From assembly GCA_963930775.1 (NCBI GenBank), contig OZ005700.1, positions 5,714,609 to 5,778,608 of the forward strand: a stretch of DNA of 64,000 nucleotides, in the 5' to 3' direction. Source of the DNA: Cliona cf. orientalis. Taxonomy: Eukaryota; Porifera; Demospongiae; Clionaida; Clionaidae. Below the pieces are notes generated by a model, which was not told where the DNA came from, did no database searches, and saw nothing but the letters and a program-made list of their open reading frames with translations. The position numbers were made by a program, and so were the translations under genes. Shown here piece by piece: positions 15,401 through 36,540 of this stretch; positions within the stretch are counted from its first letter, which is position 1; each line of letters opens with the position of its first letter.

Positions 15401-18400
15401 GGATTACCATGCACTCAGTCTTCCAATGGTCTTGTAACCTGAAATCGAAGGTTAATATTACATGCGTATACAAACCATGCCAGGTAGCTATAGTATTGAA
15501 AGACATGAATTGCCCAGAGGGCAATAAAAAAAGGAACAAAACAAGTATAAAAAATAATTAAATAAATTGAAGGATGAAGTAGGGATGACAGGGTCAAAGA
15601 GTACACGAACAAGATTAGGGATAATCACATCCACTATACATCCCTTACGCTTGCTTTTCTCAATTATCATGCTCCTAGCTGTTGATGGTGAACCATTGGT
15701 GCTATCCTTAATTTGAAGTATATGCATGTGGAAGAAATTCACTATGCTCATAGGGGTGGGGGATAATCAGCTTTGATCGTTGCATTACTGCCTGGTTAGT
15801 TAATTACTCAAAAAGCAAGCGTAGGGATGTATAGTGGATGTGATTATCCCTAATCTAGTTTGTATACTTTTGACCCTGTCATCCCTACTTCATCCTTCAA
15901 TTTATTTATATTTGTTATTATAATATAGAGGATGTGGTGACCTTTAACACATTGGTGAAAACTTATTTCACTGAATATTTCTGCAATACAAACTGGCTGG
16001 GCTTAATTATTGGCGAAATTTTTATCCAGCAAATTTTTTACATAATATATTATATGGTAGCACATGCTTAAGTTTCACTCTAGTGCTAGATTCACTGCTA
16101 CATTGCAGCTGGGTGCCTGGCAATGTTATCAACAATGTAACTGACGCTATACCATTATGTGTTAATGTAGTACCTTGCATATCACATCTATTATTATGTA
16201 CACATTACATTGATGCACAGCTGATGCACTGTTTGCTGTATATGAAGCTTCAAGTTTGGAACTGTGGTATTTCATGTATCAAGCTGCTACAAGTGGTGGT
16301 ACACGAACTACTGGACATATCCTAGTATTTTATGTCACTCTGGTATTTTTCCTTGTCTTCCTTGTTCAGGTGAGTATTTGCAGCTGATTATGAGTACGGG
16401 TTTGAAATGACAGGATTTCATGCAAAACTGCTGGGGATTCTGAGGGTTCACTTCTCCACAACTAGAGCTCTGTAGAGCACATACCCCGCACACTCTGTAG
16501 CCACTGTAGCGTAGTATTGCGGCGTAATATATGATTAGACGACCCTTTCCAACATTAAGCTAGAGCATGTGCAGTTACATCAGCATACTCGTATGCTAAA
16601 AGAGTGGGTGTGGTTGATAAGCCACAGGCATGCTGAACAGAAAATGCATGATTTGTAGCACTAGTAAGCCTTTTTGAGCGATTCGAAGCGAGTACATACC
16701 AGTTTTTCACTGATATCTACCAAATGGTTGTGCTTACAGCATGCACAGATGCCTAGAACGCAAGATCTGGCGATTTTCGTGCTGACGACAACGACAACAG
16801 ACGATTGCTTTACCCCTTGCGCATGCGCATGGGGTAATTAACTGAAGACCTCAGGGACTACACTTTTTTACCCATGTTGACTACAAATACTAGAATACCT
16901 ATTATTGGTGGATAAATTTTGGTATAGAATAATGACAAATACCGTGTAGCTGGAAATGTTGGTATGAGTTATTTGGCGACTGGGTCCCAAACGGACTTTG
17001 CAAAATAATGATAGGTTTAATTTAGTGATTCAGTACAGGATGGCCATACTTATATGTAAAGGCAGGCCTCCAAATTATTATCTGCTAGTCCCATTCCCAT
17101 ACCAGACTGGAAACGGGGTTTCTCGGGATCTAACAAATGTTTTACTACATGTATCTCCATGCAGTACATATCTATGTGTATACAGAGCTATTGTTTGGGG
17201 AAGCCTGGGGTCTGGGGGGGGGGGGGGGGGGGGGGGATATCCTAAACAGATTAATTTCATAATATTGGCTTGCATGTATACAAACATGTATGCACTGTTC
17301 TACTTTTATGTAGCAAAGCATCTTTCTTGTTGTGATAATTGAATCATTTGCTGGCCTACGTGGTGACTCGTATTTAGATTCTTCCAAGAAAGACAAAAAA
17401 AAGCCAGTAATCGTTCTTGAACATTCTGATGATAACCTTCGCCTACAATATCTCAAGAACCATGAATCAACGACAGCGTTTGAAAAAATGCTAAAAAAAT
17501 ACTATATTGATGTAATTGAGAAATTATTTCTGATTCTTGTTCTAGTGGATGCTGTTGTTACTGCAACTAAACACACAGGCATGTGTGATACCTGGCTGCT
17601 AGTACTCCGCATTTGGCAGGTAACTATCTATTATATCCTCAAATTTGTACATTCGTATACTGTATGTTCTATATCACTGAATCTACCATCTCTACGTATA
17701 AGTAGGGATGGCCCAGACACTCTCACAGATACAATATACCATATTATTGTTGACTGTAACACAGCATGGTGCAAGTTACAGTGGTCTACAATACAGGAGG
17801 CTTAGCGTATGAACACTATATTTTTCACCACTCTGATCTTGCAAGAGTTCCCTTCGTGTGTCTGCATGTTTATCTCTGCTACCACACACGTGTAAATTTA
17901 TGTGTTAAACATAGATGTCATTAGGCTAACTCTTCATAGTGTTTTCAAGGTGTTTATCATGTGGGTTTAACTGAAAGCTGTGTCTATAGTACCAGCACTG
18001 GTGCTGGAACGTTCTTCAAGTAGTATCAGTATCACATAGCCTAGCTGCCAAAGAAATCGAATCCAGTAGCCACCATTCCATGACCCAGAGTAGGCAACTT
18101 TGCCACTATCGCTATCACTGTCAGCTACCATTTTTTGCCAATTTATAGACCTTACCTACCTAATATAGTAATTATTAGTTAATAACCATTGCTTAAACCC
18201 TGCCATACTTCTACTTCTAGCCTCACTAGCTGCCCAGTGCATAGTAATAACTTTAATTTTGATTGATGCTGGAATCTATAGTTGCCGATATTCTAAGCCC
18301 AAAATTTTGGGTATTGGTGCCAATACTATAAATGTGTACAGTTCTAGGTTTGTTAAAAGTGTTGGTAATTGCCATTCCTGTGGTTTAGTTACTGTGACTG

Positions 18401-21400
18401 TACTGCATGACTGTCCTGCAAACATAGGGATACTTAGTGCGTCATGCAAGCATGAAATAGCACAAAGGGTTAATAAAATTTATTTGGTGATTGTATGTTT
18501 GTTGCAGCCCATTGTGAGTGCCTTGTTTATGATTGAGATTGCTGGCGTGCTGGTTGCTCATTTGTTCTATAGTCCAAGTCAATGCAGATTATTTTATTCA
18601 AACGGTTACTATTGGTATTTGATGGGCGTTGCTGTATGCAGTATGATTGCAAGCATACCAGTGGAACAATTGTACAACCCTAAAATGGTTGGCAATGGAT
18701 TGGCGTTATTTCAGGTAAGTTTTAATATTCTTAGAAATCATGCTGTGGTTTCTACACATGGACCGGATCCCCCCTAGAGTATATTGAGATTTTGAGCATG
18801 GTGTCATAATCCATCGGAATCTGCCTTGTGGGAGTATTTGTACATGATTCCTTTCCTTAGGCTTAGCAGGTCCATATTTCTGGAAAATTCACAATTTTCT
18901 CTATAGTTTTCTGTTTACTATTTACCAGGCTCTTCGGTTGCCGCGTGCTATTCGTCTTTTCCCCCCTTTAAAGACATTTGTTTTCAAGATTCTTGGAGGA
19001 GGATTGAAATTGCTAGTAGTTTTCCTGATTGTAGCCGTGTTCCTTGTGTGGTTTGCTGTTGTCAGTATGCAGATCTTTGGTTACCTTGATTCAGAACCAG
19101 AATGTGGTATATTCAACATTGATGAATCATTTGGAAATTTTTTTTATGTAAGGGTGGTTGTTTTGCGTGCATGATTTCTACGTGTGTTTACATTCTTCAT
19201 TCAGGCTTTGCAGTCCATATTCCAGATAGTGATGCAGGAAGGGTGGACAGAGCTGATGGGTGAAATAATGTGTCATCGTGATTATATCTGGTGGCTTATG
19301 AACATATACTTCATTGTACTTCACCTGCTTGGCTCACTGATCCTGCTAAATTTTTTTGTGGCTGTTATTTTGGACAATCTGGACTACGATGATGAAAAAA
19401 AGAAGGAAAAGTTTGAAAAGGAATTCAAGCAGAGGAAAGTTGAAAAAGTTTCCTGGAAGTTAAAAGTATTTAAATGTTGTGGTCCAAAACGAATCCGAGT
19501 TCCCAAGCTTTCATCTGCTGATGCTCCAGATCTGATTGAGGCTGATGTTCGAAAATTTTACAGTATTGGATCCGGAGAAGCGTCAGATTTCCCTGTTGCA
19601 TTTGATGTTCCAGAGCAACCACTAATAACCAATGAGCAATCCCAACCTCCCTCTGAGTTATCTGGTCTAGAACTTCTGACAAAAGGAAAAGACGCTGCTG
19701 CTAACGTTGCTTCTCATGAAAGCAAGTACTGGCATGTTCAAGGAATTTTAAATTATGTCAAAGCCTTTCGGCAGCACAATAGGGAAGCTGAAGCTACTGC
19801 AAGGCCTACGTTTGATATCTTGAGAGGAAAAACTGATACTCAGGGGGGACTGAATATTGGACAGCTAGAACCATCCAGGTAAACACAACTAGAGCTCCCT
19901 AGAGCCCAAAACCCTCGGCGCGTTGTATGGCACTTGCCTCACAATCAGGCAAGAGTACAATATTAGGCCATGCAAACTGCATTGATTTGTAGCAGCTTCT
20001 ATACAAATGTATGGAATTTTGATCCCGGGTAAGCCGGGTATGGGCCTTACCCAGTAATACTAAAACTTTATCACAGAAAATTATGCTCAGTGGCAAATAC
20101 TCAACATTTAGCTGTATGCAGAGTTTTAACATGCCAGCAGGGGGATCACATCACTCGCCTTCTGCTGCACCCATTGTTGTATTTTTGGTGTTTAGGTACC
20201 CACAAAATAGGACAATTTTATGTACACAACATGTACGTAGAATATTCATATAGCTGCATGTATTATGTATTGAATTAGCTTGCTTCACGTGAGTATTGCG
20301 TAGCTAAGGTTGATGTCAATTTTTTTGTCCAGTGAAGATTTTTGGGTATAAAATATCATGGTGTGATATCTTTTTCCACCAATTAGAGACAGGTTCTGAG
20401 GATATGGACCATGTCATCCGAAACGTGACTTTTAACTGTTTTTCAAGCTGCCACAGTTTCAAGACCTTAAGAGCCCCAGGCGTTCCTACTTGGTTATTGA
20501 TAGTTTCGGCCTTCTACTTCACAGATCAATGTTAAAGCTACTAGCAAGCCTCCTGTACCAAGTTGTGAGCTACCAAAGTGAGGCATAAAAAGGCTTGTCC
20601 TACCCACACCAGAAATGGTCAGGGGTTGGAATTCCCCTGCGAGCATAGCAGGATGATACGAGAACTATCACTATATGCATTTTAAAAATACTGGATAGTG
20701 GGAAACGTTTGAGGGAGAAAACGTTCACGGATCAGTAGGAAGTGAGCATTTTGCAGAGAAAACTTTCGCAGAATGCTACATGTATATCACGTATAGCTGG
20801 GTTGGATGTGCCTAAATTTTGTGGAGGGAACTGTCGCAGGTGGCTCTCAAACCACAATATTTGTGAAGGTTTTCTCCCTCGAGCGTTTCCCGCTGTATGG
20901 TATAAATTGGAAAAGTGCGATCTGGTCCTATTTCTCATCCTACCTCTTTTCTTTGAGTATTAAATTAGAGATACCAAATTATTGGAATAAGCATAGTGCA
21001 TATACATGTAATGGAATAATAAATTATTATTGATGCATATGCAGGGCTAAGAGTGAGTATGATGAATATCGAGAAAAGTTTCGACTCTTTGACAGTGCTT
21101 TGTTTTGTATGCCTCCTGACCACCGACTAAGAAGATTTTGTAACAAGGTACTTACTTCTCAGCTGGATGCTCCTATTAGTGGCCAGGCAATGGAGTCACA
21201 AGAACTGAAAGTGTTCTTTGCAGCAAGATTCAAATTCATCATTTGGTGAGTAATGGTATCCATGAACTATTAACAATAGAATGCTTCATTCAGTATGTGA
21301 ACTACACTAGCTATTAATGTTGTAGTTGATTCACCACTCAAATAATATATGAAATACTAGAGCTCATAGAGCACATACCCCGCGTGCCATGGCAATATCA

Positions 21401-24400
21401 CCCATGGCCATGCCTCTTCTTAGTGGCCTCTATTCTTTGAAGTTTAATCTCTTGCTACTTACGAACGTTTTCGTTCCCTTCTGAGATCCATGATCACAAA
21501 ATTAATGGCATTAATTTTGTGCTAGAAGCATGCTGTAGAGAAGCTTGAGCATGCGCAATAGACTTCATAAGGTACTAGGTGGGCGTGTCCAATGTGGGTG
21601 TGGTTGATATATTTGCACGATTTGTAGCTTCCCTGGGTACTGCCTAGGGTTAAGAATGAGAGAAAAGGTGCTTTTTCACTGTCTTACACCATTTTATCCC
21701 ATTTATTGACCCTACATTCGCTTAAATGTTGAGATTTGCCGATTTTTATGCTGACAGACGACAGACGACAGACAAACAGATTGCTTTACCCCTTGCTGTG
21801 CATACGCGCACGCAGGGTAATGAATCCCTTTCAAACTAGAGCTCTATAGATCACATACCCTGCACACACATTATGCAATCTGTAGGTCTACGTATACTTT
21901 TGTGTGTCTGCATGGTTAAAAAAAAGTGACCGGAAATGCTGGATGAACTAGTAAGTTATTCCTAGGGTCAGTACTAGTCAGCAGTGTTTCTGATATGATC
22001 AAATTTCTCTAAGATATCATTATTTAGTTTGTCTAAGTATGGATTTATCGCGTGCATACTTGTGGCTACCTATTGCGTAGTGTTTAGTTAGCCAGGTCTT
22101 GGCCTACTAGCTGCTATATAGCTTAATAGATTTGAGTTCAGCCTTCAAGCTAATAGTTCTAATCGATTTTGAACTTGGTCACCTCATCTATCAAAATTAG
22201 CAGAAATGGGCAGCTTATTTCAGCTTCATAGTAAAGGCAGTTGGCTATTCTCCAAGCCATGCAACACTACAAGCCTTGCATTTATTCGGGGCGAGCCTGA
22301 GCGAGCCCCGAATACACGAGGTACAGGAAGCGGTTTTATATGTATATACATATGTATACTTGTATGTATGTATGTTTGTGGGGTGATCATTTCAGTGAGG
22401 AGAGAGTTAAAATTAATTATTTTGAACGCGTAAGGTAATGGTCGTCATGCGCATGCGCATACGCCCGCACTGCACCATCGATCTGAGAGACAACTGTAGG
22501 CGAGGCCTAAAACTTGAAAGGAGAGTGCTGTACCACTCTGGCAAGGCTCAGGTCCACGATTAACATCACTGGTAGACTCCACTTTCCTGAGCATGAAGAT
22601 GACTGCATGGAGGCTTATCCTCTCAGGGCCTGGCTACAGGTACTTGGACTCATGATCATGGCATGTAGACTACTAAATATAGCATAGGTGATCAACATTA
22701 TTGGACTATAGCTATTATACTAGCAATCTGTGATACTTTCACTGTGGTCGTAGCTTCTCAGGCCTGGCTATTGAGATACCACCCCATGTGCGCATGCATG
22801 CCTATGTGCTTTCAAAGAAATCTTGTGACTTTGCGAAGGCTCGCCCCGCACAGATGATTTCATCAGCACTAGTAGCTTATGAGAAGAGAGCAGTGGATAT
22901 CACCACAGAGGAAGATATTCTTCGCTAAGGTAGTGAGCGTTCTTTCCATGCCTTGTAGTGTCATTCTAGTAACTCAAATGGCAGTATGAGTGTGAAATTA
23001 ATTACCCAGTTAGTCTGTGGGACTTTTGTATTGAGACAAAAATTAATAACTATATTATGGTTAGCCATGAAAATCCCCATGGTTTCGGAATTTTATGGGT
23101 TTTTCATGGCTTTGGTATGTCAAAATTTTGTAGGTATTTCATTGGTTAATGTTTCATAGTAAAATCATATTATGCTCATGGTATATATTCACAAGTAAGT
23201 GACCCCATGAAATGTTAACGTTTCCTAGGGTTATATTGATAGCTACGAGCTAGATCGTGTTACACCAATCTGGCATTATTTCTCTCAATGAAAAATAATT
23301 CATTATAATAAATTATTTTTCATTGAGAGAAATAATACCAGATTGGTGTAACACAATCTAGCTCGTAGCTATGAATATGACGAACACCCAATCAAGAAGT
23401 TTGCTGAAATATTTCCTAGGGTTGATGGTCATGAAATATCTTGCATTATGTTGCATACATATATGCATATGTACATAATGTGAATATTAGTTATTCATGG
23501 AAATTTCATAGAGATTTCGGTTGATTCCTGATATAAATGTCCCGAAATATGCCAAGTCAGCAAAATTATTTAAACAAAAATACTATTTATATTGCTATCA
23601 ATGTTTCTTGCATTCCCATGTTTCTGGCGTTCCCACTGCTAGTGGGTGTTCCTAGCGTTCTCATTGTTCCTGAAGTAACCAGCATTCCTAACTTTCCCCG
23701 AGTCCCTAGCGTTCCTAACATTCCACTCTTCTTCATTGTTCCTGAAATTCCCAGTGTTCCCACTGTTCCAAGCGTTTCTGGTGTTTCCACTGCCTACTTG
23801 GTGTTCTCACTATTCCTAGCGTTCTCAGTGTTCCTGAAGTGCCCAGCGTTCCTATCGTTCCCCTGTTCCTAGCGTTTCTGGTGTTCCCAGCTACTTCAAG
23901 GGCCTCACTGTTCCTAGCGTGCCCAGCGTTCCTAATGTTCCCCCTGTTCCTCATTTTTCCTGAAGTTCCCAGCGTCCCTAGCGTTCCCACTGTTCCTAGC
24001 ATTTGTGGCGTTCCCACTGCTACTTGGTGTTCCCATTCCTAACGTTCCCCCTGTTCCTGGTATTCTCATTGTTTTTGAAGTCCCCAGCGTTCCTAGCGTT
24101 CCCACTGCTCCTAGCGTTCTTTGCATCCCCACTGTTCCTTGCGTTCTCATTGTTCCTGAATTGCACAAATTCCTGATGTTCCCCCTATTCCTCTTAGTTT
24201 CTGAAGTTCCCAGCGTTCCTAGTGTTCCCACTGTTCCCATCGTTTCTGGCGTTACCACTGCTACTTCGTGTTCCCACTGTTCCTAGCGTTCTCATTGTTC
24301 CTGAAAGTGCCCAGCGTTCATAGCGTTCCCACTACTCCTAGCGTTTCTGGCATTCCCACTGCTACTTGGTGTTCCCACTATTCCTAGCATTCCTAACGTT

Positions 24401-27400
24401 CCCTCTATTCCTGGCGTTCTCATTGTTCTTGAAGTCCCCAGCATTCCTAGCGTTCCCACTGCTCCTAGCGTTCTTTGTTTTCCCACTGTTCCTTGCGTTC
24501 TCATTGTTTCTGAAGTGCACAGAGTTCCTGACATTCCCCCTGTTCCTCATTGTTCTGAACTTTCCAGCGTTCCTAGCATTCCCCTGTTCCTAGCGTTTCT
24601 GGCGTTCCCACTGCTACTTCATGTTCCCACTGTTCCTAGCGTTCTCATTGTTCCTGAAAGTGCCCAGCATTCCTAACGTTCCCACTACTCCTAGCGTTTC
24701 TGGCGTTCCCACTGCTACTTAGTATTCCCACTGTTCCTAACGTTCTCATTGTTCCTGAAAGTGCCCAGCGTTCCTATAATGTTCCCACTATTCTCAATGT
24801 TCTTGGTATTCCTACTATTTCTAGTGTTGTCATTGTTCCTGAAGTCTCAAGCACTGCTAGTGTTCCCAATATTATTATAATTTTTCGGGTGTTCCCACAG
24901 TTCCTAGTGTTCTCATTGTTCCTGACGTCCTCAGCGTTCCTAGTGTTTTCAGTGTTCCTGCAGTCTCCATCATTCCTGATGTTCCCACTGTTCTCGATGT
25001 TATTAGGTTCCCACTGTTCTCAAGGTTCCTTGTGTTGCCACTGTTTCTAGTGTTTTCATTGTTCCTGCAGTCTCCGGCGTTCTTAGCTTTCTTAGAATGT
25101 TAGGAACGCTGGGGACTTCAGGAACAACGAGAACGTTGGAATGCTGGGGACTTCAGGAACAACGAGAACACTGGGAACGCTGGGGACATCAGGAACAACG
25201 AGAACACTGGAAATGCTGGGGACTTCAGGAACAACTAGAACATTGGGAACGCTGGGAACTTCAGGAACAATGAGAACGCTAGGGGCAGTGGGAACGCTAG
25301 GAACGCTGGGCACTTCAGGAACAACGAGAATGATAGGAACAGTGGGAACACTGGGGACTTCAGGAACAACGAGAATATTAGGAACACTGGGGACTTCAGG
25401 AACAACGAGAATGTTGGAACGCTGGGGACTTCAGGAACAACAAGAACACTGGGAACGCTGGGGACTTCAGGAACAACTAGAACACTGGGAACACTGGGGA
25501 CTTCAGGAACAACTAGAACGCTAGGAACGGTGGGAATGCTGGGCACTTCAGGAACAATGATAATGTTAGGAACAGTGGGAACGCTAGGAACACTGGGGAC
25601 ATTAGGAACAACGAGAATGTTAGGAACGCTGGGGACTTCAGGAACGTGAACATTGGAATGCTGGAACAACGTGAACGCTAGGGAGTTCAGGAACAATGAG
25701 AACACTGGGAACGCTGGGGACTTCAGGAACAATGAAAACGCTAGGAACAGTGGGAGTGCTAGGAACGCTGAACACATCAGGAACAATGAGAACCCTAGAA
25801 TATCTAGTGATAGTGGGAACATCAGAAATACACTAGGAACGGTAGGAAGAACAGGAGCATTGAGAACAGTGGGAATGCGTTATAGTATTGTATTGTGTAT
25901 GATACACACAAGAATTTGCTGACTTGGTATATTTCGGGACATTTACATTAGGAATCAACCGAGATTTCATATAAATACGTCTACTATACTAGTGCTACCT
26001 ATATTAATATAGCTATCTTACGTATACATGTACATCCTGGTTCAGTTCCATAGGGCATCACATTTTGGTGACATAATAGCCCTGTACTGTTTGGCTGGTA
26101 GTTATATATCCACTTATGACCATAATACATTTCGACGATCTTTACCAGTTCATAGCCTGCATGCATTATGCATTATGCATTGAGTAGGCACTATTGATAG
26201 GCGTGGCTATGATGGCCAACAAAAAAGGTACTATTTGTGGCGATCATAGACTGTGTCCCTCTGTGTGAAGCATACTGAAGCCAGTTTTTCACCAAATTCG
26301 ATTTATTCTTACGAGTAGCTTAGATGCCTATACGGTGATTTTTGTGCTCGTGACGACAATAATGACATGACCGATCACTTTAGCCCTTCAGTGGCGGATC
26401 CAGGATTTCTGGAAGGGGGGTTCTGATATGCAAAGCGCGCGCGAATTTTTAGAAGCCACGCCCACTTTCGGGCAAAACCACGCCCTCTTTCGATCGTTTT
26501 TGAGACAAACTACCAGCTCTATCAGTCCAATCGATCTGTTTTCGAACGAATTTTTTCTAAAGCATTCTAAGGTGAGCCATAGCAGCAGTTTTGTTAGTTC
26601 TGTAGGCAGAAAGGGGGGTTCCATTTTAATACCTAACATCCATGTACGTCTTAGTGCTAGGTGTAGCCAAAGGGGGGTTCCTGTGCATCCCTGGATCCCC
26701 CTCTGGATCCGCCACTGCCCTTGCACATGCGCGCAGGATAAAGATTCAAATCAGAAAACAGCATAATCTATTGTCGTTACTGCCATGTACACTTAGCTGA
26801 CTATTGATTCTACCTTAAATGTTCCTTGATTTTGAAGGTATGGCAGCATTAAACTTGCATAGTGACAATGTCATAATAATTATTGTACTATAGCTACTTC
26901 CTGTAAACTAGTCATATTCCCAATGCCATGCTCACATTCTGTGTCATCTCTGATAGGCGATTGAGCTACATTTATGAGTTTTATTGTGAATTACGTATCT
27001 AATGTTCATACATGTACTGATAGATTTTTATTCTTTACAACATCACACTTGAAACATGAAAGTGGGAAAATATATAAATTTGCTGATACAGGGGGTGCTC
27101 AAGCACCCCTCCCTCTCAGCCAAGACAACATACAGGCTTCCATAGACACTGGCCTAAGTAGCTGGCTCTAGCACCTTTCTAGCCAAGAAACCTTAATCTG
27201 ACATCATAAATTTAGCTATATATCTGATAAACCTGTCTGTAGGGGCAAAAATTTGACTTCTCCATGTTTTCTGGTTGTTGGTTCTCGTATCGCAGCAATT
27301 AGGATAATTTCACAAAAAGGGGGAGGCTTACATCACAATATCAACAAATAATAGATTACCTTAAGCTGACTATTTTTTGCAGGTATTAATGTTTGATAAT

Positions 27401-30400
27401 TTTGCAGATTGACCCAAAAATGCAAGATTCTGTACCCACTATATTAGCTATATGCACTATAGAACATTAGAATGTGTTGACCCTGTATCATTTCCACATA
27501 CCAATCACAAAACTTAGTGCTCACAAACTGTTTTAAGCCACAATCGCAGAAGAATGTACCTGCAAATAATTGTCACCCTAAGGTAACCACTTGTACATAT
27601 GTGTAGGGCAACAGTTTGTGTGATCCTAGTTGCATGTGCATAGAATAGAAAGTTTCATGCATCGCTTGGTCAGTAAGTACATACATCTTCACTTCAAATT
27701 AGAGTGAAACAACAGACTTGACTTTCCTTCTACCTTCAGGTATATTGTGAGTCTTCTTCCCTACTTCACTTGGGTGATGTTCATCATCACTTTAGGCACC
27801 ATTGCTGTTCAGTTTTATGAACAGTACACTAATATGCCAAATGCCAACCCTTCCTATGTATGGTTGGCTGATATAGCATTTGTGTCTGCTACGCTGGTGG
27901 AGCTAATTTTAAAGGTAACCAGTACATAGTACTCAAGCTATGTGTATTACAGTTACTGCAATCAATCCTGCAGATATTAGCTAGAGGACTGTTCTTCAAT
28001 CCTAATGCTGCTATCAGTCAGGTCTGGGATGTGCTTGATTGGATAATAGTAGTTGCCACATTTGCTGTCAGTATTCTATACTGTAGACACTGCTACAGTT
28101 ATGAGATGCCTGTGAGGTTTGAGATTACCTTCACAGGCCTACCACTGTGGCTCCTGTGAGTTTCTAGTTGATATAAAGGTATGTATATTATACCCTCTCT
28201 TTTGTTAGGGCTCTACTCTTCTTCCGACAGATTCGTCCTTTACGGCTAATCAGTCTCATTCCAAGCATGCGTAGAGTGATATATGATGTTCTTCTTGGCT
28301 GGAGAAAGTTTCTTCAGGCTGCTATTTTGCTTATTGGATTTGTATTTATGTTTGCCAGCCTTGGTGTTCAGTTGTTTGCTGGTCAGGGCAGTCCTCAACA
28401 ATTTTGTAATGATCCTTCAATTAATAGTCTTAAAGATTGTACTGGAGAGTTTGAGATCAACATAGAGGCATCACCTCAGGAACTTCTTCCCTCAAACAAT
28501 ACTATAATTAGTATTCATGTTCCAAGAGTATGGTGAGCGTCATGAATATTCTCATGCTTTCATAACAGTTGACAACTAAACACAGGTTTGAGAGTCGGCG
28601 TGACTTCAGGTTTGATGACACCTTCCAAGCTCTGGTAACTTTGTTTGAAGTTTTAACTCTTGAAGGCTGGCTTGATGTAAGAGATGTCTTTGAGGGAAAG
28701 TTTGATTGGGTATGCATACAACCAGCAATTTTGATGATAATACACATGTAATTGTTTTCTTATGAAGTACATGAGATTCTATCTTCACGTCTTTGTGTTC
28801 CTTGGGGTGAACCTGGGCCTCCAGTTGTTCGTTGGTATTGTAGTCAATAACTTCAATGAGCACAAGCCTGATCACTCAGCCTTACTCACCGTCTCCCAGA
28901 AGCGTTGGCAGGATCTTATTGAGAGGATTGCTCTCACACGACCCATTAAGCAACCTCCTGAACCACGTATGCAATACCTTCATAAATATTATGACGTGTG
29001 TGTAACGCTTTATGGTGTTAGCTTATTTACACTTACATCCAGGTAACAACAAGATCAGATCCTTTTTCTACAAGCTGTTTATCAGTACCTATTATAAGCA
29101 CATCTCCAGTGTTATCATTGCTGCCAACTCGACCCTACTTTCTGTGCCAGTAAGTTTGGCATTATGATAGAGGAACAAACCAGTGACCATGCCCGGCCAC
29201 TCCTGTGCCAAGAGCTTTGCCATAGAAGCCATGTCCAAAGCAATAACTATAGATATATACGTATGTACAAACATATTAGATTGGTGTTATCTATATTATG
29301 TTGACTAGCGATTTAATCGCTAGTTTGGTAAGAGGACTCACTCTCCAGCTAGCTACTGTCGCTGCAACACGTGTATGCCATACATATTACTAAGCGATCG
29401 TAGCTAGCTTGGAAATACAATCTGGATCTCTATCGTGCACTATAAAACGATAGTACAAAGCCCAGTTTTAGTCTGATGCTGCCTATTTCAGCCATGTGTA
29501 CTCCCCATTTACAGCCCTGCTGACCATACAAGCCATTTTTGCTTTCTTTAGGAAGATGATCAATTATTATCACTGTAGGAACCAAGATTCAAGAAGCTAG
29601 GTAGAATCATGACTGCTACTAGTGTACAAAAGCACTGCCAGCTACATAGCTGGCTAGCAAATGGTATGATGTCATACGGTCGCTATGGAGTTGTTGTAGT
29701 TGTCAGATGATGTCAGTGCATTACTATAGTAGTGCAGATGTAGTGGGCTTTAAATAATACCACGCCCCCTTGGACTGCATGGGCATGGTACAACTATTAT
29801 TTAGAGGCAAGCATAACAAGGGTGTTGAATAATTGTTAAACTACATTAGTATACTTTCATGCAAATCTAATCACTACTTTCATTCTATTTTGCTGCAATC
29901 TTTCTAAGTGCATACTGCATACAGTCTGCACGAAGGGTCAAATTTCTAATTCACGCGGAAGTGAATCACGCACCCGGAAGTTAATTTACACTATGGGGAT
30001 TTTGTATGGGCGAATTTTAACATGGCGGACAGAACAGGTGGTCAACTCGAGTCGACGGTACGTGTCAGCAACGCCGGTGTGAAGGCTTTTGAGCCAAGAA
30101 CTGGTTGAAACAACTATATTATGAGCTACACGCAGTCGTTTCAAGAGTTGTCCTGATGTAGGTTGTGTAAAACAGCTCTCCTGCTGCTGCCACTATCTGC
30201 AGGGATCCTCATTTCAACATATTTAAGAATCTTTGAACATATACTTGCACGCCTGCAATGGACCTAAAACTCGGTACAGGACTTCAATACCATAATATGT
30301 ACAACATACTTTCTTCAAGAGATACAGGTTGGCCCTAGTTGGGATCTGTGAGGTGCATAAAACCGAAAATTTCCACTATATTCAAGGCCCTCAGTCAGAG

Positions 30401-33400
30401 CCTACCCAACGCTGATGGCTGGATTAAATGGATGGTCTTAAGATTCTGTCCTAACACTCTCCAGTAGAACCAACATCATACTCCAATTCACAATAATTTG
30501 TGAGTGATGGTCTACTTCATACAACACATTTGGAGATTTTTGAGTCTGGAGCATTTTCAGAATTTTTTTTTTGAACATGGTGAAGATAAGCAGCCAATCT
30601 TTCAAAAACACCAGTGTAGATACATTACAACCAGTAGTTTAACATATGTTATAGCTGAATCCAAGGGCTTATCGACCGCCAAAGGCGGTCGATAAGCCCT
30701 TGCTGAATCTTGATTGTTTCTATTTGTAAGAGATTTTTTGGTATCAAATCCTGATTTTTGTAATATGGTGCACTTGGCTCCCTTGACCCTGCTTGGCCCG
30801 CTGACCTTTTTGGCGGTGGCACTAATATTAATCTTAAAAACGCGCGCAACCGTATACAATCACGTTCATACAACGTGTGCGCAATATATTATCATGAATG
30901 CGCATACGTTTGGCGCTCACGCAATGCGCTAGCCCTAGGTGTATACGTATATCATGGCCTGGCAACCAAAGTAAACAACGTACTTCATGTACAAATAAGA
31001 AAGTGTATGGAAAACGTGCCCCCTTCGTGCAGACTGATGCTACAACATTCACGTATAAGCTCAAGATTGGTTATCCACAGAGGTGTATCCACACCTGCAA
31101 GCACACTCCCACTACATCTCTAGATTGAGCAGCTACTATTGGATAGTACCTACCATTCAGAGTGAATACGAACACTTAGTGCAGATTCCTAAAGTGTACT
31201 GAACAGGCACACTAAGTATTTGCAGGATCTATGAAGCCGGAGTCAGCAGAAGCATAGTAAACAGTGTGTTTTTGGTTGAGAAAGAGCCGAGTCATCTATT
31301 GTCCTGACAGGCATATATCACATTCTCAGCGAAGTTCACATGATTCATATCTTTAAAGACCTACACTGTATAAGAATCACTTGATATCAGATGTACAAAC
31401 CAGACTCTAGCATGAACAAAACACAGACACACACAGCACACAGAATGACTTCTGTGCCCCTCAATGCATGCGCCAAGGGTTATAATAATATTATTATTAT
31501 GATGTGTGTACTTTATAATATTATATTATTATTCCAGTGGGATGATGACTACGAGGATTTGAGAAACGCAGATCAGTATCTCATTGGATTCTTTGTTGCC
31601 TTTGCTGCTTTTTACATCTTAGAGGTACAACATGTGTGTATACTGACTTGTGCTTGTAGCTACTACTGCCTTTCCCAGGTCATCAAAATAATAATTGTTT
31701 ATTTTATAGTTTCTACTGAAGCTGGTAGCATTTGGAATGAACTACTTTCAGAGTTGGAGGAATGTATTTGACTCCCTACTTGCTCTCTTAGCATTTGTCT
31801 ACATCACTCTTGCAATAATTTATTTGTCCAATGGCAGCTTAGATGTAAGTAGAAACTCACATTGCTTTATTAATAATAAACTAAAACGTTTTTTCCAAAG
31901 ATTCAAAACGTTGCTGATGTTGCACTGGTCCTTTCTGTCTTGAAGCTTCTCACCATTCTCATGAAATATGTTCGTAAGATAGATTTCATTGACATTTGTG
32001 ATGGTTTATATATTATCTATAGAGCACATTCCAAAATCTCCTGACCACTGTTGGTAATACCCTAATCAGAAGTGCCTCGCTATTTGGAGCTCTATTGGCT
32101 ATTATTGTTTCCTATGCTTTTGTTGGAATTCTCTTCTTCAGTAATGTTCGTTCTGGAGAAGCCATTGACTATGGATTAGTGAACTTCAATGAGGTGTTTG
32201 TTTCCATTGCTATTGTGCTTCGAGTGATGACTGGAGAAGATTGGCACCAGATTTTAGCCGATGCACGGGTCAGTGATGCATGCATGCTGCTAAATACCAT
32301 ATAGCCAGAAATATTGGCAGCAACTAAATTTGGCAGTTGGGCCCAAAATAATTACCATTGCAAAAATTGGTGAATTTAAATTTGGTGGTTTGGAATGGCA
32401 TTGCCATACCAAGAGTAATACTCTTGCCATACAGATATGTGAGTAAGAAATTCTGGCAGATTTTAATTTGGCAATTGACTGCCAAATTGCAAAATTTAAT
32501 TTCCCACCAAATTTTCTTGCTATACAGTAACCCCTTATATTACCCAATTTTATTTCATGTGCAAGGAATAAAGTACTCATATTTTTGTTATTTAAACCAA
32601 AATTTCAAATTTTGGTGAGCTCACAGCTAAAAGCATGCCCATTGCTGGATTTCTACTTGCCCCCGTATGGCGGGTAGTTTTCGTGGAAAGTCTAAAAAGG
32701 CCCTCAAAATTAATTTTTGTCATTTTAAATTCCGTGACAGCAACCAGTCCAGGGGCGTGGCACTGCTGCACAAACGATGATGTAATCGATATGTATGCTC
32801 GCAATCTTCTTTGTTATATACTAAGCCATACCTATAGAGATCTGGACAAATAGCATGAGATAAAAGAATATTGATGACAATGGCTACTGTTTCTTGCTAA
32901 TACTGGGAAGTGTTGGCCGCGCTGCACGATGTTTGTGGCCACGCCCATCATCATGAACTCACATATCATTGTAGGCATTAATTTTCGTGGGTGGAAAATT
33001 TCGTGTCTGCCCAGTCAACCACGAAAAAAACGAAAATTAGCACCCCATGAAAATTATCCACCATACAGTATTACCGTGTTTATGCTAATAAAACACAAGA
33101 GCTAATTAGCGCAAGAAAATTTGCGTCATAGAAGTTTTCATAATGTAGAGTGTGATGACCTTTACCAGAAAATTGCGCAAAAGTTAATATTTTTAGCTGC
33201 GTTCTATTAGAATAAACACGGTATTGTATAAGATTAACATTGCTTACTGTGTGTCATTGTTTATGATTCGAGTTCTGAATGTTACTCGTATAGGTGGAGC
33301 CACCTTACTGCTCTGAAGAGCGTGCTGATTGTGGGAGTCCTGTTATAGCTTTATTTGTATTCCTCTCCTACTATATTGGGGTAACTTTCATTCTCATCAA

Positions 33401-36400
33401 TGTATTCGTAGGTAAGTGTAGCTTGATGATATTATTATACCGACAATATCCAGAAATGTAATAATTTATTAGACTAACTGTGAGTAGGCTGCATGTAGTT
33501 TGTGATGTGATCTTGAGGGGAATAAAAATTAATACTGGATAAAAATCAAACCCTGATCTGTCAACAATTGCCGCAATGCGGTTTGCTATTGAATACAATT
33601 GCTGCAATCATAGATCATACAGATTATGTAAACAGGATTGGAAACCACTCACGTGAGCAATAGAACGTGTGTGCACACTCTGTGTTATAGTTTGCATTCC
33701 TGGACAGCCCAGTTGCTATGACAATTTGAGCCAAAAATGGATGACCACAGTGCACTTATCAACTGATAACAGCAAAATAGAAGTAGTTTCAAGCTTGAAG
33801 AAGGCTTATTCCGGTGAAGGTGTCCCTACTGTAAATGTGGCCAGCAAAATTGAATTTCTGAAGCCTCTCCACTCAACGCTACAGTCCTACAAAGTCCAAG
33901 AAGCAAAAATGACCGATTTTTCACTAATTGCTCGCTCACAGAAGACAGCGCATCCATCAAGAAGTGCCTATTCCAGTGTGCCAGTACAGTGACTTTGCCC
34001 TTGCCACTCTTTTGTGGCTGTGGCCCTTGCACGATTCAAAATAGAGTCCTACAAAGCGTTTCCCCGTTGTTCACTCTCGCCATAGACGGAAAAAAACAAG
34101 AGCAAATTTGTTTGGCCACAACAGTGAGAGTACAGTACCTGCATGCTGACTTGCATACTGACTTGCTGGTAGTGTTTTCCTATCTCAGAGCATTAACTTT
34201 TGTTGCTTTTTGACACTGTAATTTCAACACCAATACACATAGAACTCGACAAAGCCATCTACCTTGACCATAACACAGAGTGTGCAGCCATCGCGTATGC
34301 AAATGTATTACTCATGTGAGTGGTTTCCAATCCCGTTTACATAGTTCTGCGATTTCCTATTGAATACTGTATAGCCAAAAATTTCACAGAAAATTTTAAT
34401 ACTTTAATACTTTAATACTTAATACTTTCTCTCAAGCCCAGTTTTTTTATAGTAGCATTTCATGAAATGCAGTAAAGGTCACTGTGTTATATCATGTATG
34501 TAATCATTAACATACAAGAAAAAAATTCTCATTAATTTTTATCAATAACGGCAAGCGGCACAATTGGTAAAACTTTAATATTTTTGGCTATGCAAGTATT
34601 GCTAAGTCAGTTAAGAGGGTAGTATAATTATTATGATATTCCTCATTACTTTTTGTTTGATGCTGTATAGCCGTTCTACTGGAGAGTTTCTCAATTTTTT
34701 ACAATGAGGAGGATACTGAATTGAGTCATGGTGTGGTCAAAGATTTCAGACAAAATTGGTTACATTTTGACCAGAAAGCTTCTGTGAGAGATTAGATTTA
34801 GTACCAACAGTATAATGTAATTCTGACATTTATAGGGAACCGTCTCCAACAGCAGAGTTAAACTTTTTCTTAGGACACTCAGGCTGCAAGACTTCTTCAC
34901 CTATCACATAAATGAGAATGGTGTAAAGGTTGGGTATTAAGTTTTACCCATTCATACCATTACTACTTCTTTGTAACAGGAGCGTAAGAAATGTAACACA
35001 CTGAATGATCCGTTAATACTCAGAGAAATGGCAGAAGAACTCCGTAGAGATCCTAGACAGCTCGGAGGTAGACCAGACCAGGGTCTTTCTCAGCTGCAAT
35101 TCTCCTCTCTAGATACAAATAGAGAAACACATTCCTTTCAAGATGTTTTGAAGTAAGAAAATGTCATATTCTGCATAATTAGACACTTTTCTCACTTTAG
35201 GACAGTAGCTTACAGAGCTGAAGATATATCCAAACGTCTTGTTCCCCATGAACTTTATATAAGAGAAGAATTAGAAGAAAGCGTTCAATTTGATGTAAGA
35301 CCAGTTATAGTATCCCGGGTTAGCACCCATGGACACTAAAAACATAGCTTGCAATTTTAGCCTGCGTGGACAGGATATAAGTTGCATCTGTTTGTACAAA
35401 GCAGGTACATTGACCCTTGAAATTTGGTGTAGGTGGATGGGGGGCTAGTCTGTACTCCTTGCTAAGAGTATTCAATTGCAAGGCATTTATGCTGGGGGAG
35501 TTAATACTTAGTATGTGGTATTAATTTTGTAACCATAATAATATTAAGTGACATCGTTCTCGGTTGCTCTGCATGAATAAACGAAGATTCTTTTCGGACA
35601 ACTTAACTGTTCGGTAAAACTTGCCGACGTTTCGACTAGATGCTCTAGTCATCCTCAGGGCATCTAGTCGAAACGTCGGCAAGTTTTACCGAACAGTTAA
35701 GTTGTCCGAAAAGAATCTTCGTTTATTCATAATAATATTATTATCATCTTATAATTATACAAACTATTGACATTGTGTAAAGTGTTTGGATACAATAATT
35801 GACTTAATAATTACCCGGGGTCAAAGTTGTCAAGCCACAGTTTTTTATCGGTGTGCATTATGTGCTACATGTCCCCCCAGTTACAATAATAATAAAAAAT
35901 TTTGTAGTTTCAGTGCAAGTCGTCATTAGCCCTAAATAATTAATTTTATCTTAATATCCAAAATTCCTATCATCACAGGTTGCTGAAAGCTGCATTCTCA
36001 AATGGATGCAATCTTTTGTGAAGCCAGTTATTAAAACCCAGGCTAGATACAGAAGGCAAACGGTATTATGAAAATTATTATTATACCTAATAGTATTGCA
36101 ACACTATGAATATTGCTGTCAATTATTATAGATGTCACAGAGTGTGCTTCGTAGAACTCCCCATTTGGGGTTGAGAGAAGAATCAGGTAATGTGATGAAT
36201 ACACAAAGTCTTGTCCTAGCAAGGCTAATGAACTTCAATAATTCTAGTTGTGTGGGATACTCCCGAAGATGGTGGATGGAATGAGCACTATACATCAGCC
36301 CCTGATACTGAAGACGAGAATGATTTTGCCAGTGGTGTGTGTCATGGACAACATTCCCTTATCAAGCAATCGGATCAGGGCCCAACAAATAAGGCATTGG

Positions 36401-36540
36401 CAAAATCTTATGCTAAGCTGGAGAAAGCTGTTCCTTTGGGACATAAGCCAGAAAAGTGGCATGACTGGTTTGAAATGCAAGCTGATTGGATGAAGAATGT
36501 TGAAAAAGATCCAGAGCATTATTTTGATGACTATCTTTAA
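407..36540 (+). CDS. NALCN: NALCN-type sodium-leak channel, 27 exons, 5' partial
   Basis: Four-domain voltage-gated-like cation channel of the plasma membrane. The NALCN family carries resting sodium leak, in animals together with UNC79, UNC80 and an NLF-1/FAM155 subunit. Exons: 407-573, 2765-2884, 9037-9197, 16221-16369, 17314-17619, 18508-18714, 18929-19147, 19205-19878, 21045-21245, 27740-27914, 27974-28155, 28209-28532, 28586-28709, 28768-28966, 29043-29149, 31538-31624, 31710-31844, 31901-31973, 32023-32268, 33294-33411, 34671-34783, 34836-34928, 34980-35152, 35201-35294, 35979-36062, 36132-36186, 36248-36540. About 1,625 residues are present; human NALCN has 1,738 in total, so the part before the domain I S4 lies upstream of the window. 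The pores contain SSLELW, MQEGW, TLEGW and TGEDW, giving an EEEE filter. All introns are GT-AG and phases agree except at exon 18/19. S4 charge is sparse in domains I and IV, as is typical for this family. Cch1-like or Cav channels were considered, but linkers and loop cysteines fit NALCN best. Confidence 0.9.
1209..2126. mobile_element. TIR element with CCTTAGGGGGAC termini, hosting another element
   Basis: The ends TACCTTAGGGGGACAATTA and TAGTCCCCCTAAGGTA are inverted copies, about 918 bp apart, in NALCN intron 1. A second TIR element (1427-1955) sits inside. The termini resemble those of the 208-224 bp elements at 47843-48066 and 59889-60095, so this may be the same family enlarged by the insertion. 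No transposase is visible. Confidence 0.6.
1427..1955. mobile_element. Nested TIR element with GC-rich core
   Basis: Left end TACCGTATAGCGGGTAAATT and right end CCCGCTATGCGGTA are inverted repeats; inner copies of ATTTGGCGA extend the similarity. The middle (about 1530-1740) is much richer in G+C than the AT-rich arms. It contains an ATG at 1646 opening a short frame that soon stops. It is non-autonomous; the TA at the ends would fit a TA target duplication. Confidence 0.65.
2228..2682. mobile_element. Family B miniature element, copy 1 (about 455 bp)
   Basis: Starts near ATGGCGGGTAATTTTCATGG and ends with TTACCCGCCATATGGTA. Inner sequence (AAAGTCCGAAAAGGCCCTCAAAAT, CAGGGGCGTGGCACTGC, ATCATCATGGACTCGCA) recurs at 32662-33070, 50293-50690, 50716-51152 and 60669-61104. 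Open frames inside are shared only because the repeat is shared. Confidence 0.75.
3166..3341 (+). repeat. 5' LTR
   Basis: Starts TGTAACAGGAG and ends GTTGTTACA, so the termini are perfect TGTAAC/GTTACA inverted repeats. It contains TATAAATAGC, a plausible TATA box, at about 3278. It differs from the 3' LTR at six positions out of 176, all transitions. Confidence 0.93.
3392..4069 (+). pseudogene. gag capsid-like frame of the Ty3/gypsy element
   Basis: A 226-residue open frame from ATG at 3392 (an in-frame ATG also exists at 3323, inside the LTR). It has the gag-type pattern [12 protein letters not shown] and an [12 protein letters not shown] helix about 100 residues later, typical of the retrotransposon capsid domain. 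The frame ends in TAA at 4067-4069, before the zinc knuckles, which lie in another frame. A one-base change around 4050-4069 probably separated them; programmed shifting cannot be ruled out. Confidence 0.85.
4140..4772 (+). pseudogene. Zinc knuckles and aspartic protease of the Ty3/gypsy element
   Basis: The frame starts with two intact CX2CX4HX4C nucleocapsid knuckles ([14 protein letters not shown], then [14 protein letters not shown]), followed by a retropepsin with the active-site triplet DTG in [10 protein letters not shown] near 4387 and the ILGMDFL motif near 4600. After about 4690 the plus-strand frame is no longer protease-RT linker: the real linker reads on the minus strand up to about 4945, showing a local inversion. 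The frame stops at 4770-4772. Confidence 0.85.
5128..6379 (+). pseudogene. Reverse transcriptase and RNase H of the Ty3/gypsy element
   Basis: The first frame (5128-5550) gives the RT fingers with [19 protein letters not shown] and the palm motif TIDLSSGY. A frame change near 5545 moves to 5498-6379, which has [16 protein letters not shown], the catalytic YLDD box near 5730 and RNase H beginning [16 protein letters not shown] with TEKEALA. Another frame change near 6375 follows ITDHQPL. The catalytic aspartates are visible but one protein cannot be made. Confidence 0.9.
6370..7981 (+). pseudogene. Integrase of the Ty3/gypsy element
   Basis: The rest of RNase H ([15 protein letters not shown]) leads into the integrase HHCC zinc finger ([15 protein letters not shown] ... 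CEECSRR). A TGA at 6958-6960 interrupts the frame just before the catalytic core. The core keeps the D,D,E triad: [14 protein letters not shown] and [10 protein letters not shown] further frame change near 7700 shifts into the C-terminal part ([19 protein letters not shown], then [10 protein letters not shown]). No chromodomain is seen. Confidence 0.9.
8090..8265 (+). repeat. 3' LTR
   Basis: Same length as the 5' LTR with six transitional differences (about 3.4 %). Its end reads TTGTCATA instead of TTGTTACA, so the inverted terminus is damaged. Confidence 0.9.
8564..8960. mobile_element. TIR element with poly-C/poly-G arms
   Basis: Ends TACCGTAGAATCCCGCAATT and AATTGTGGGATTCTATGGTA are imperfect inverted repeats, each next to a run of C or G (ATACCCCCCCCC, GTGGGGGCG). 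A partial copy lies at about 59217-59292. A 103-codon frame at 8685-8996 crosses the right end and is not a gene. Confidence 0.65.
9590..9750 (-). repeat. Exon-like repeated segment, copy 1
   Basis: On the minus strand this reads [12 protein letters not shown], then [14 protein letters not shown], followed by a GTTAGG donor-like site. The same arrangement occurs on the plus strand at about 41930-42026, ending ALQ before GTAAGG. Similarity at both DNA and protein level suggests two copies of a captured 5' exon or part of a mobile element. Function unknown. Confidence 0.5.
10643..10838. mobile_element. 196-bp TIR element, GTCGGGTTTTAATTGCG family
   Basis: Ends TACCGTAGGTCGGGTTTTAA and its near-perfect inverted copy at 10838. 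A second copy, in opposite orientation, lies at 63795-63986, sharing the core words CTATTAATTGCG and GTACCGTACTG. Non-autonomous. Confidence 0.75.
11645..11957. mobile_element. Hairpin element H, copy 1
   Basis: Left arm (ACAAGTATAAAAACAATTGAAT ... ACTATACATC) is repeated inverted on the right (GATGTATAGTGG ... CAATTGTTTTTATACTTGT), leaving a loop of about 60 bp. Arms are over 110 bp. Other copies are at 15541-15915, 59293-59672 and 60434-61252; a half copy is at 56570-56650. Confidence 0.75.
12185..12640. repeat. Dispersed repeat shared with 61855-62165
   Basis: The segment with CACATGATTTCACCATGGCA, then GAGCATGCGCATTATAT and TTTATACTCAAACAAAG, recurs at 61940-62120. Overlapping open frames in both copies (103 and 91 codons) have no family resemblance. 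It may be a larger mobile element with a CpG-rich core. Confidence 0.5.
12928..13510 (+). mobile_element. Family C element, copy 1
   Basis: Runs from ACTAGAGCTCTGTAGAGCACATACCCC to CTTTACCCCTTGCGCACGCG..GGGGTAATT. Internal landmarks such as CATTATGCATTGAGTGGGCA, GGCGTGGCTACATTAGCCAA and GTGCTCACAACGACAACGAC recur in copies at 14653-15273 (minus), 16461-16840, 21357-21820, 26130-26745 and 45640-45845. No protein-coding part. Confidence 0.7.
13511..14650. repeat. GGGGCGAGCC-bounded repeat region between inverted family C copies
   Basis: Begins GGGGCGAGCCGAAGCGAGCC and ends near GTGGAGCTCGCCCCA. A related pair of ends frames 22283-22857. Contains (TA)n and AATATTATA tracts at 13630-13670 and 14080-14110. 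Flanking family C copies point in opposite directions, so the whole block 12928-15273 is a large imperfect inverted repeat. No gene seen. Confidence 0.45.
14653..15273 (-). mobile_element. Family C element, copy 2 (reverse)
   Basis: Reverse-oriented copy, from TAATTACCCCGCGCGCATGC to TATGTGCTCTACAGAGCTCTAGT, with the same internal order of landmarks as the copy at 12928-13510. Confidence 0.7.
15541..15915. mobile_element. Hairpin element H, copy 2
   Basis: Arms ACAAGTATAAAAAATAATTA...GATTATCATG and GCAAGCGTAGGGATG...CATCCTTCAATTTATT are inverted; the loop of about 130 bp differs from copy 1. Lies in NALCN intron 3. Confidence 0.7.
16461..16840 (+). mobile_element. Family C element, copy 3 (shortened)
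   Basis: Starts ACTAGAGCTCTGTAGAGCAC and ends TTACCCCTTGCGCATGCGC..GGGGTAATT, about 200 bp shorter than copy 1. Situated in NALCN intron 4. Confidence 0.65.
17214..17236 (+). repeat. G23 homopolymer tract
   Basis: Uninterrupted run of 23 G in NALCN intron 4, sense strand. It is one of at least eight such runs of 17 to 27 G in the window. Confidence 0.9.
17314..19878 (+). other. NALCN: NALCN I-II linker and domain II, exons 5-8
   Basis: Exon 5 completes S6 ([15 protein letters not shown]), gives a lysine-rich linker and domain II S1 ([13 protein letters not shown]). Exon 6 holds S2-S3, and exons 6-7 meet in S4 ([16 protein letters not shown], arginines spaced by three). Exon 8 encodes the pore (FQIVMQEGW, glutamate at 19238-19240), S6 ([14 protein letters not shown]) and the start of the cytoplasmic II-III linker with a charged [11 protein letters not shown] stretch. 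Introns 6 and 7 are 214 and 57 nt. Confidence 0.88.
17620..18507. other. NALCN intron 5, nothing recognised
   Basis: 888 bp of AT-rich intron. The splice donor GTAACT and acceptor TTTGTTGCAG are clear. I see no inverted-terminus element, RNA gene or additional coding exon. Confidence 0.6.
20688..20902. mobile_element. Family E miniature TIR element, copy 1
   Basis: Ends TACTGGATAGTGGGAAACG and CGTTTCCCGCTGTATGGTA with inner GAGGGAGAAAACGTT / AGGTTTTCTCCCTCGAG. The better preserved copy is at 53262-53473. Lies in NALCN intron 8. Confidence 0.7.
21357..21820 (+). mobile_element. Family C element, copy 4
   Basis: Begins ACTAGAGCTCATAGAGCACATACCCCGC and ends CTTTACCCCTTGC...GCAGGGTAA. A further start (CTAGAGCTCTATAGATCACAT) follows directly at 21836, so two copies abut. 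Confidence 0.6.
22283..22857. repeat. GGGGCGAGCC-bounded repeat
   Basis: Starts CGGGGCGAGCCTGAGCGAGC and ends GGCTCGCCCCGCACAG. Related at its ends to 13511-14650. Contains a TATG/TGTA microsatellite at 22340-22380. Confidence 0.4.
23240..23372. repeat. 133-bp near-perfect hairpin
   Basis: The left arm starts AGCTACGAGCTAGATCGTGT and its inverted copy ends at 23370; the arms are about 60 bp with a tiny AT loop. In NALCN intron 9, just before the minisatellite. Confidence 0.85.
23583..25890. repeat. Large minisatellite with orientation switch
   Basis: From 23583 to about 25085 the sequence is built of variants of GTTCCTAGCGTTCCCACT and GTTCCTGAAGT.CCCAGC. From about 25093 to 25890 the same units run reversed (GAACGCTGGGGACTTCAGGA, ACAA.GAGAACGCTAGGAAC). 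The base unit is about 15 bp in higher-order groups near 45-48 bp. Long open frames (for example 195 codons on the minus strand, 25235-25822) arise because units are multiples of three. Lies in NALCN intron 9. Confidence 0.92.
26399..26717. mobile_element. Miniature TIR element with 5-bp target duplication
   Basis: Perfect inner termini CAGTGGCGGATCCAG and CTGGATCCGCCACTG are flanked on both sides by CCCTT (26394-26398 and 26718-26722). The target is the CCCCTTGCGC end of a family C copy, so the insertion order is clear. No transposase inside. Confidence 0.85.
29150..31537. other. NALCN intron 15
   Basis: 2.4 kb intron. It holds a palindrome at 30662-30702, and at about 30020-30070 a GC-richer piece where an ATG (30024) opens a short frame [12 protein letters not shown] before GTACGTG, which looks like a 5' exon with a donor site. 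No complete gene or TIR element was recognised. Confidence 0.5.
30662..30702. repeat. 41-bp perfect palindrome
   Basis: Arms CAAGGGCTTATCGACCGCC and its reverse complement around a 3-base centre AAA. Confidence 0.9.
32295..32529. mobile_element. Family F miniature TIR element, copy 1
   Basis: Ends TACCATATAGCCAGAAATATT and AAATTTTCTTGCTATACAGTA, with repeated inner AAATTTGGCAGTT words in both orientations. The copy at 57927-58129 is better preserved. Begins 26 bp after the donor of NALCN exon 19. Confidence 0.65.
32662..33070. mobile_element. Family B miniature element, copy 2
   Basis: CCGTATGGCGGGTAGTTTTCGTGG at the left and ATTATCCACCATACAGTA at the right, with the family's GGGGCGTGGCACTGC and CATCATCATGAACTC inner words. 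Confidence 0.7.
33616..34345. mobile_element. TIR element with a 107-codon open frame
   Basis: Left ATGTAAACAGGATTGGAAACC and right GGTTTCCAATCCCGTTTACAT are inverted repeats extending to CACTCACGTGAG / CTCATGTGAGTG. Inside, a frame at 33669-33992 contains [18 protein letters not shown] and [18 protein letters not shown], of even composition unlike the AT-rich intron around it. I do not recognise the product. In NALCN intron 20. Confidence 0.55.
34836..36540 (+). other. NALCN: NALCN cytoplasmic C-terminus, exons 22-27
   Basis: Six exons of 55-293 nt encode a charged cytoplasmic tail with no membrane segments. Exon 25 has a [19 protein letters not shown] segment, matching in position the basic IQ-like helix of vertebrate NALCN. 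The last exon is acidic (DTEDENDF) and ends DDYL followed by TAA at 36538-36540. The final stretch resembles the acidic end of vertebrate NALCN only in composition. Confidence 0.8.
35573..35730. repeat. 158-bp near-perfect hairpin
   Basis: Arms of about 71 bp (left from ATGAATAAACGAAGATTCTT, right its inverse) enclose a 16-base loop TCTAGTCATCCTCAGG. The minus strand reads CTGAGGATGACTAG...CTAGTCGAAACGTC, a motif with hammerhead-like core words. Lies in NALCN intron 24. Confidence 0.88.

Follow-up and report, generated by a model that had tools for sequence, protein, structure and literature searches.

Channels of the NALCN family in early-branching animals are known to carry a selectivity filter unlike that of vertebrates. 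In sponges, the placozoan Trichoplax and cnidarians, the four filter residues are given as EEEE or EDEE, with no lysine, a pattern proposed as the likely ancestral one (Senatore et al. 2013, PMC3557258) and also reported for early-animal NALCN in PMC4436565, whereas the vertebrate filter is described as E280/E554/K1115/E1389 (PMC7672056), with its lysine in domain III (DIII; the four domains are DI to DIV). A fly mutant was rescued by an EEKE channel and not by a mutated EEEE channel (cited in PMC3557258), so the ring matters there. A 2023 review (PMC10120453) states that, in all animal NALCNs, the filter residue of DI, DII and DIII is followed immediately by glycine, DIV being the exception. 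Here we describe a NALCN gene in 64,000 nucleotides of the sponge Cliona cf. orientalis (assembly GCA_963930775.1, contig OZ005700.1, positions 5,714,609 to 5,778,608 of the forward strand). We refer to this whole stretch as the window, and all positions below are counted from its first base. The gene has the EEEE ring expected from other early-branching animals, and it has a leucine where the review places the DI glycine.

The four filter codons are all GAA on the plus strand, at 16259, 19238, 28662 and 32236, and encode the glutamates of SLELW (DI), MQEGW (DII), TLEGW (DIII) and TGEDW (DIV). All four lie in one spliced frame, in which these motifs start at model residues 105, 397, 930 and 1216. 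The all-glutamate filter proposed in the initial annotation is therefore confirmed codon by codon, and its contrast with the lysine of vertebrate DIII agrees with the published numbering. EEEE is one of the NALCN rings named in PMC3557258 (EEEE, EDEE, EKEE and EEKE). In DIV, a GAT codon directly follows the GAA, giving the aspartate after the filter residue that characterizes NALCN, and the aspartate after the DII glutamate that marks Cav1 and Cav2 (PMC10120453) is absent, DII reading MQEGW. The initial annotation presented the ring as a notable state. The ring is real, but because it has already been described for sponges, placozoans and cnidarians, it is no departure: it is known in kind and is a further instance of what has been published. 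The description of such a ring as calcium-channel-like, also made in that annotation, is an inference. EEEE NALCN is listed among channels called cation non-selective or calcium-permeable (PMC5824947), and the 2013 authors were unable to confirm selectivity by in vitro expression (PMC3557258).

The residue beside the DI glutamate is a more unusual feature than the ring. The DI filter codons are TTG-GAA-CTG-TGG, with the leucine codon CTG (16262-16264) directly after the GAA (16259-16261), so that leucine stands for glycine after the filter glutamate and a second leucine stands for glutamine before it. Glycine follows the filter residue in both DII and DIII. Compared with mammalian NALCN, the window has SLELW for SQEGW in DI, MQEGW for TQEGW in DII and TLEGW for SLKGW in DIII, and both have TGEDW in DIV. 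The DI filter aligns to NALCN without gaps and in register, with the VYEASS that precedes the filter and the filter tryptophan both present, which upholds the earlier statement that LELW replaces the usual QEGW. Among the residues numbered in human NALCN (PMC7672056) and matched here by eye, E275 and the DIV aspartate D1390 are kept, whereas glutamate takes the place of D558 and glycine that of D561. Because PMC10120453 gives glycine after the DI filter residue in every animal NALCN, the DI leucine makes this NALCN an exception to a rule in print, drawn from a survey that may not have covered the relevant sponge genes. We take glycine after the filter residue as a regularity drawn from a survey and not as a trait that defines the family. 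In the open-access literature searched, no NALCN was described with anything but glycine directly after its DI filter residue; the sponge sequences behind the papers of 2013 and 2025 lay outside that search.

The sequence comparison that places the gene in NALCN was made against PDB chains only. In this comparison, the DIII-DIV part of the protein matches NALCN at 344 bits, ahead of Cav1.2 (185), the highest-scoring Cav, and Nav1.8 (141), the highest-scoring Nav, and DIV taken separately reaches 98.7 bits with NALCN against 72.5 with the next channel, Nav1.5. The DI-DII part scores 126 bits to NALCN, 105 to Cav1.2 and 74 to Nav1.5. The DI stretch from segment S5 to S6 matches NALCN with up to 54.6 bits (E 1.3e−13). 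Up to E 1 it hits none of the Cav or Nav chains, and its single non-NALCN match is an unrelated protein (E 0.24). Because these longer queries score higher to NALCN chains than to Cav or Nav, the gene is, by sequence similarity, NALCN, as the initial annotation had named it. The model also has the 4-0-2-2 pattern of turret cysteines, with all four DI turret cysteines kept. Since this pattern is common to NALCN, Cav and Nav (PMC6259924), it does not discriminate in favor of NALCN. As expected, a search of prokaryote genome contigs with a 1173-residue model found no relatives.

Taken together, the observations make it quite probable that the window holds an intact-looking NALCN gene of an early-branching animal, with an EEEE ring, the DIV aspartate, a single set of pore exons and a leucine variant in DI. 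The encoded protein would be a cation leak channel that works with the usual partners UNC79, UNC80 and FAM155. Because the lysine is missing, calcium would be expected to enter or bind more easily than in the EEKE NALCN of vertebrates. Calcium block of mammalian NALCN is affected more by D1390A than by E1389A (cited in PMC7712781), and, because the DIV aspartate is retained, sensitivity to calcium block would be kept. The bulky leucine beside the ring should alter the shape of the filter in DI, much as may happen with the larger residues reported at this place in many Nav channels. We put forward more tentatively, as a possibility that we hold to be somewhat doubtful, that this is a working NALCN whose filter falls into a class outside the 2023 classification (EEEE with the DIV aspartate and a bulky hydrophobic residue beside the DI glutamate) and whose calcium permeation or block differs from that of other EEEE NALCNs.

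Several observations weigh against an intact gene with a working variant filter. The exons 5′ of DI S5 were not located, and completeness of the gene is thus unproven. The DI alignment has a two-residue insertion before S6 and one extra residue within S6. Two residues upstream of the DII filter glutamate, the window encodes methionine (19232-19234) and mammalian NALCN has threonine; matched by eye on the sequence, this methionine appears to occupy the end of the first pore helix, where threonine, serine or cysteine is highly conserved in NALCN (PMC7672056). The DII pore exon alone separates the families poorly (88.2 bits to NALCN, 82.7 to Cav1), and the DI-DII part scores below the DIII-DIV part, its query including a long, poorly matched linker. 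Such departures could reflect relaxed constraint rather than a new filter that works.

Among the alternatives, the one that survives best is that the gene is a decaying or functionally relaxed NALCN duplicate in which constraint on the DI filter has been lost. Sponges can have two NALCN genes, as reported for Amphimedon (PMC3557258; PMC12412391), and LELW, the few extra residues within and just ahead of DI S6 and the weaker match of the DI-DII part would all fit such a copy. However, the 1423 modeled residues contain no stop, and DI retains all four of its turret cysteines, its VYEASS and the tryptophan of its filter. Nor does the DI pore stand out as eroded: in 21-residue pore segments, 11 residues are identical to mammalian NALCN in DI, compared with 9 in DII, 12 in DIII and 9 in DIV. 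We regard a relaxed duplicate as unlikely.

A much less probable alternative is that the DI pore as read is not the one used, either because a canonical QEGW exon lies elsewhere or because the assembly is in error here. The gene is known from the assembly alone, and 13.3 kb, including a retrotransposon, separate the DI S5 exon from the DI pore exon. Neither a motif scan nor tblastn of the pore peptides against the window detected a QEGW exon for DI. The scan (pattern [EDK][GDASN]W, plus strand, 1-37000), which is blind to other residues after the glutamate, gave 15 matches. Three of them fall on the pores of DII, DIII and DIV; the remaining 12 are not pore-like when judged by eye, none resembling the DI pore. 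A tblastn search with the four pore peptides (E up to 50) returned their own exons, weak matches of the pore repeats to one another and matches at chance level, with no extra copy. Two weak DI-pore-like matches in the window could be taken to favor another exon, one at 16667-16723 in the next intron (E 3.5) and one at 1610-1648, ahead of S5 (E 7.4, or 0.58 when the DIII peptide is the query). Both are at chance level, however, and have a residue other than glutamate or lysine where the filter would be; the former lacks the tryptophan, and the latter precedes S5 and meets a stop soon after. By the genetic code, TTG GAA CTG and CAR GAA GGN share the GAA but differ by four or more bases in the codons on either side of it, and a single base error therefore cannot explain LELW.

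The same scans address the lysine-bearing alternative pore exon that, according to the initial annotation, would overturn the reading of an all-glutamate filter. Such an exon was looked for in the window by intron lengths, motif scan and pore-peptide tblastn and was not found. The DIII pore exon is flanked by introns of 53 and 58 bases and the DII pore exon is preceded by one of 57, lengths that we judged too short for another exon. In the intron that follows the DII pore exon (1166 bases), the motif scan gave nothing pore-like and tblastn gave chance-level matches. The weak pore-like peptides that the DI and DIII pore queries picked out in the window lie at 1610-1690 (FEASSCRKW) and 16652-16723, with E values of 0.58 to 7.4; both lack a filter glutamate and are probably chance.

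That the gene is a Cav or Nav can be set aside as barely credible: the Cav filter is also EEEE and the DII pore exon alone scores almost as well to Cav1, but every longer query (DI-DII, DIII-DIV, DI S5-S6 and DIV) favors NALCN, and the aspartate comes after the filter glutamate of DIV, its position in NALCN, whereas animal Cav has it in DII (PMC10120453).

The spliced model of the gene was put together manually, using open reading frames and splice signals. It comprises 23 exons on the plus strand (2765 to 35294) and 1423 residues without a stop, every exon being preceded by AG and followed by GT, and the gene looks intact. The initial annotation placed the channel at 16221-32268. These limits coincide with the start of the DI pore exon and the end of the DIV pore exon, but the gene is larger; it spans from 2765 or before to at least 35294, and probably on to a stop at 36540. 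All four pore loops are present. The exons for DI S1-S4 were not located by tblastn with the mammalian NALCN DI stretch or among window frames of at least 38 residues; exons 5′ of DI S5 may lie before the window start, or may be short and diverged.

The first recognized exon, DI S5 (2765..2884), was found by tblastn with mammalian NALCN DI (E 0.011), is bounded by AG and GT, lies within the DI query that matches NALCN, and holds the first turret cysteine (QTC). The other three turret cysteines (THC, AMC and MAC) are in the DI turret exon (9037..9197), which came from an exon search scored for phase and codons and aligns to NALCN DI. Higher-scoring candidates in that search were retrotransposon frames and were set aside by eye; this exon was chosen for its cysteines and its continuation into the DI pore. 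The exon for the DI pore and S6, with SLELW (16221..16369), is supported by its codons, tblastn, the DI alignment and the AG/GT model, and the exon for the end of DI S6 and the I-II linker (17314..17619) by the DI alignment and the spliced model. Across the junction between these two exons (16364-17319), DI S6 reads LVQQSIF in the model and LVKNVF in mammalian NALCN, one residue shorter; a weaker donor (GTTCAG) six bases upstream would instead leave DI S6 one residue shorter than in mammalian NALCN.

The exons of DII were placed by the model and the DI-DII comparison with PDB chains. These are a voltage-sensor exon (18508..18714) and an S4-S5 exon (18929..19147), whose segment labels were assigned by eye; an exon for the pore, S6 and II-III linker (19205..19878), with MQEGW and the GAA at 19238-19240, for which the codons are further evidence; and a II-III linker exon (21045..21245), for which the DIII-DIV comparison is evidence as well. 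The DIII exons, placed by the model and the DIII-DIV comparison, are S1-S2 (27740..27914) and S2-S3 (27974..28155), both labeled by eye; S4, S5 and turret with two turret cysteines (28209..28532); the pore (28586..28709), with TLEGW and, at the vertebrate lysine place, the GAA at 28662-28664, again also supported by its codons; and S6 with the III-IV linker (28768..28966). The same two lines of evidence place an exon for the III-IV linker or DIV S1 (29043..29149), DIV S1-S2 (31538..31624) and DIV S2-S3 (31710..31844), all three labeled by eye, and DIV S3-S4 (31901..31969), the boundary of which is less certain owing to a weak donor (GTTCGT) after 31969. The DIV S5 and pore exon (32023..32268; TGEDW, GAA at 32236-32238) is supported by its codons, the DIV comparison and the model, and the exon for the post-pore loop, with two cysteines, and S6 (33294..33411) by the DIV comparison and the model. 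The exon that finishes DIV S6 and opens the C-terminal domain (34671..34783) lies within the stretch aligned to NALCN 1320-1480 and is part of the model. Three further exons (34836-34922, 34980-35152 and 35201-35294, together 34836..35294) are open and in phase. We presume these to be C-terminal, having matched them by eye to the NALCN C terminus. An open frame with a terminal stop (36232..36540), taken from the open reading frame list and not joined to the model, is inferred to be a possible last coding exon.

Other features lie within and beyond the gene. A long terminal repeat retrotransposon (3163-8261) lies in the intron that separates the DI S5 exon from the DI turret exon. It is bounded by two 175-base direct repeats that are 97% alike (3163-3337 and 8087-8261), and its frames match aspartyl protease, reverse transcriptase, RNase H and integrase, and gag weakly; from its gene order, we take it to be of the Ty3/gypsy type. 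Within the intron at 21246-27739 is a tandem-repeat array (23601-25820; 36 overlapping rows of Tandem Repeats Finder, periods 17 to 278), on both strands of which there are long open frames that are probably not genes. Downstream, on the minus strand (51304-55941), 4/4 frames scanned match the Cfap43 coiled-coil family (E 3e−40 to 5.7e−28), and a cilium-protein gene therefore follows NALCN in the opposite orientation.

The DI leucine is a counterexample to a rule on NALCN filters that was stated as universal, and it offers a natural variant for asking how the residue beside the DI glutamate affects the passage of sodium and calcium. The closest described systems are the EEEE and EDEE NALCNs of sponges, placozoans and cnidarians (PMC3557258), with which the window protein shares its family, the four filter glutamates and the lack of a lysine version; it differs in its DI SLELW from the glycine that the 2023 review places after the DI filter residue. 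With the EEKE NALCN of vertebrates it shares the DIV TGEDW, the VYEASS before the DI filter and the DI turret cysteines, but it has glutamate for lysine in DIII, LELW for QEGW in DI and MQEGW for TQEGW in DII. Cav1 and Cav2 have the same EEEE ring, and their extra aspartate follows the DII glutamate in animals, whereas here it follows the DIV glutamate. Nav1 and Nav2 resemble the window protein in a different respect, many of them departing from glycine after the DI filter residue, possibly with an aromatic residue (PMC10120453); their rings, however, are DEKA, DKEA or DEEA, and the window protein scores lower to Nav chains.

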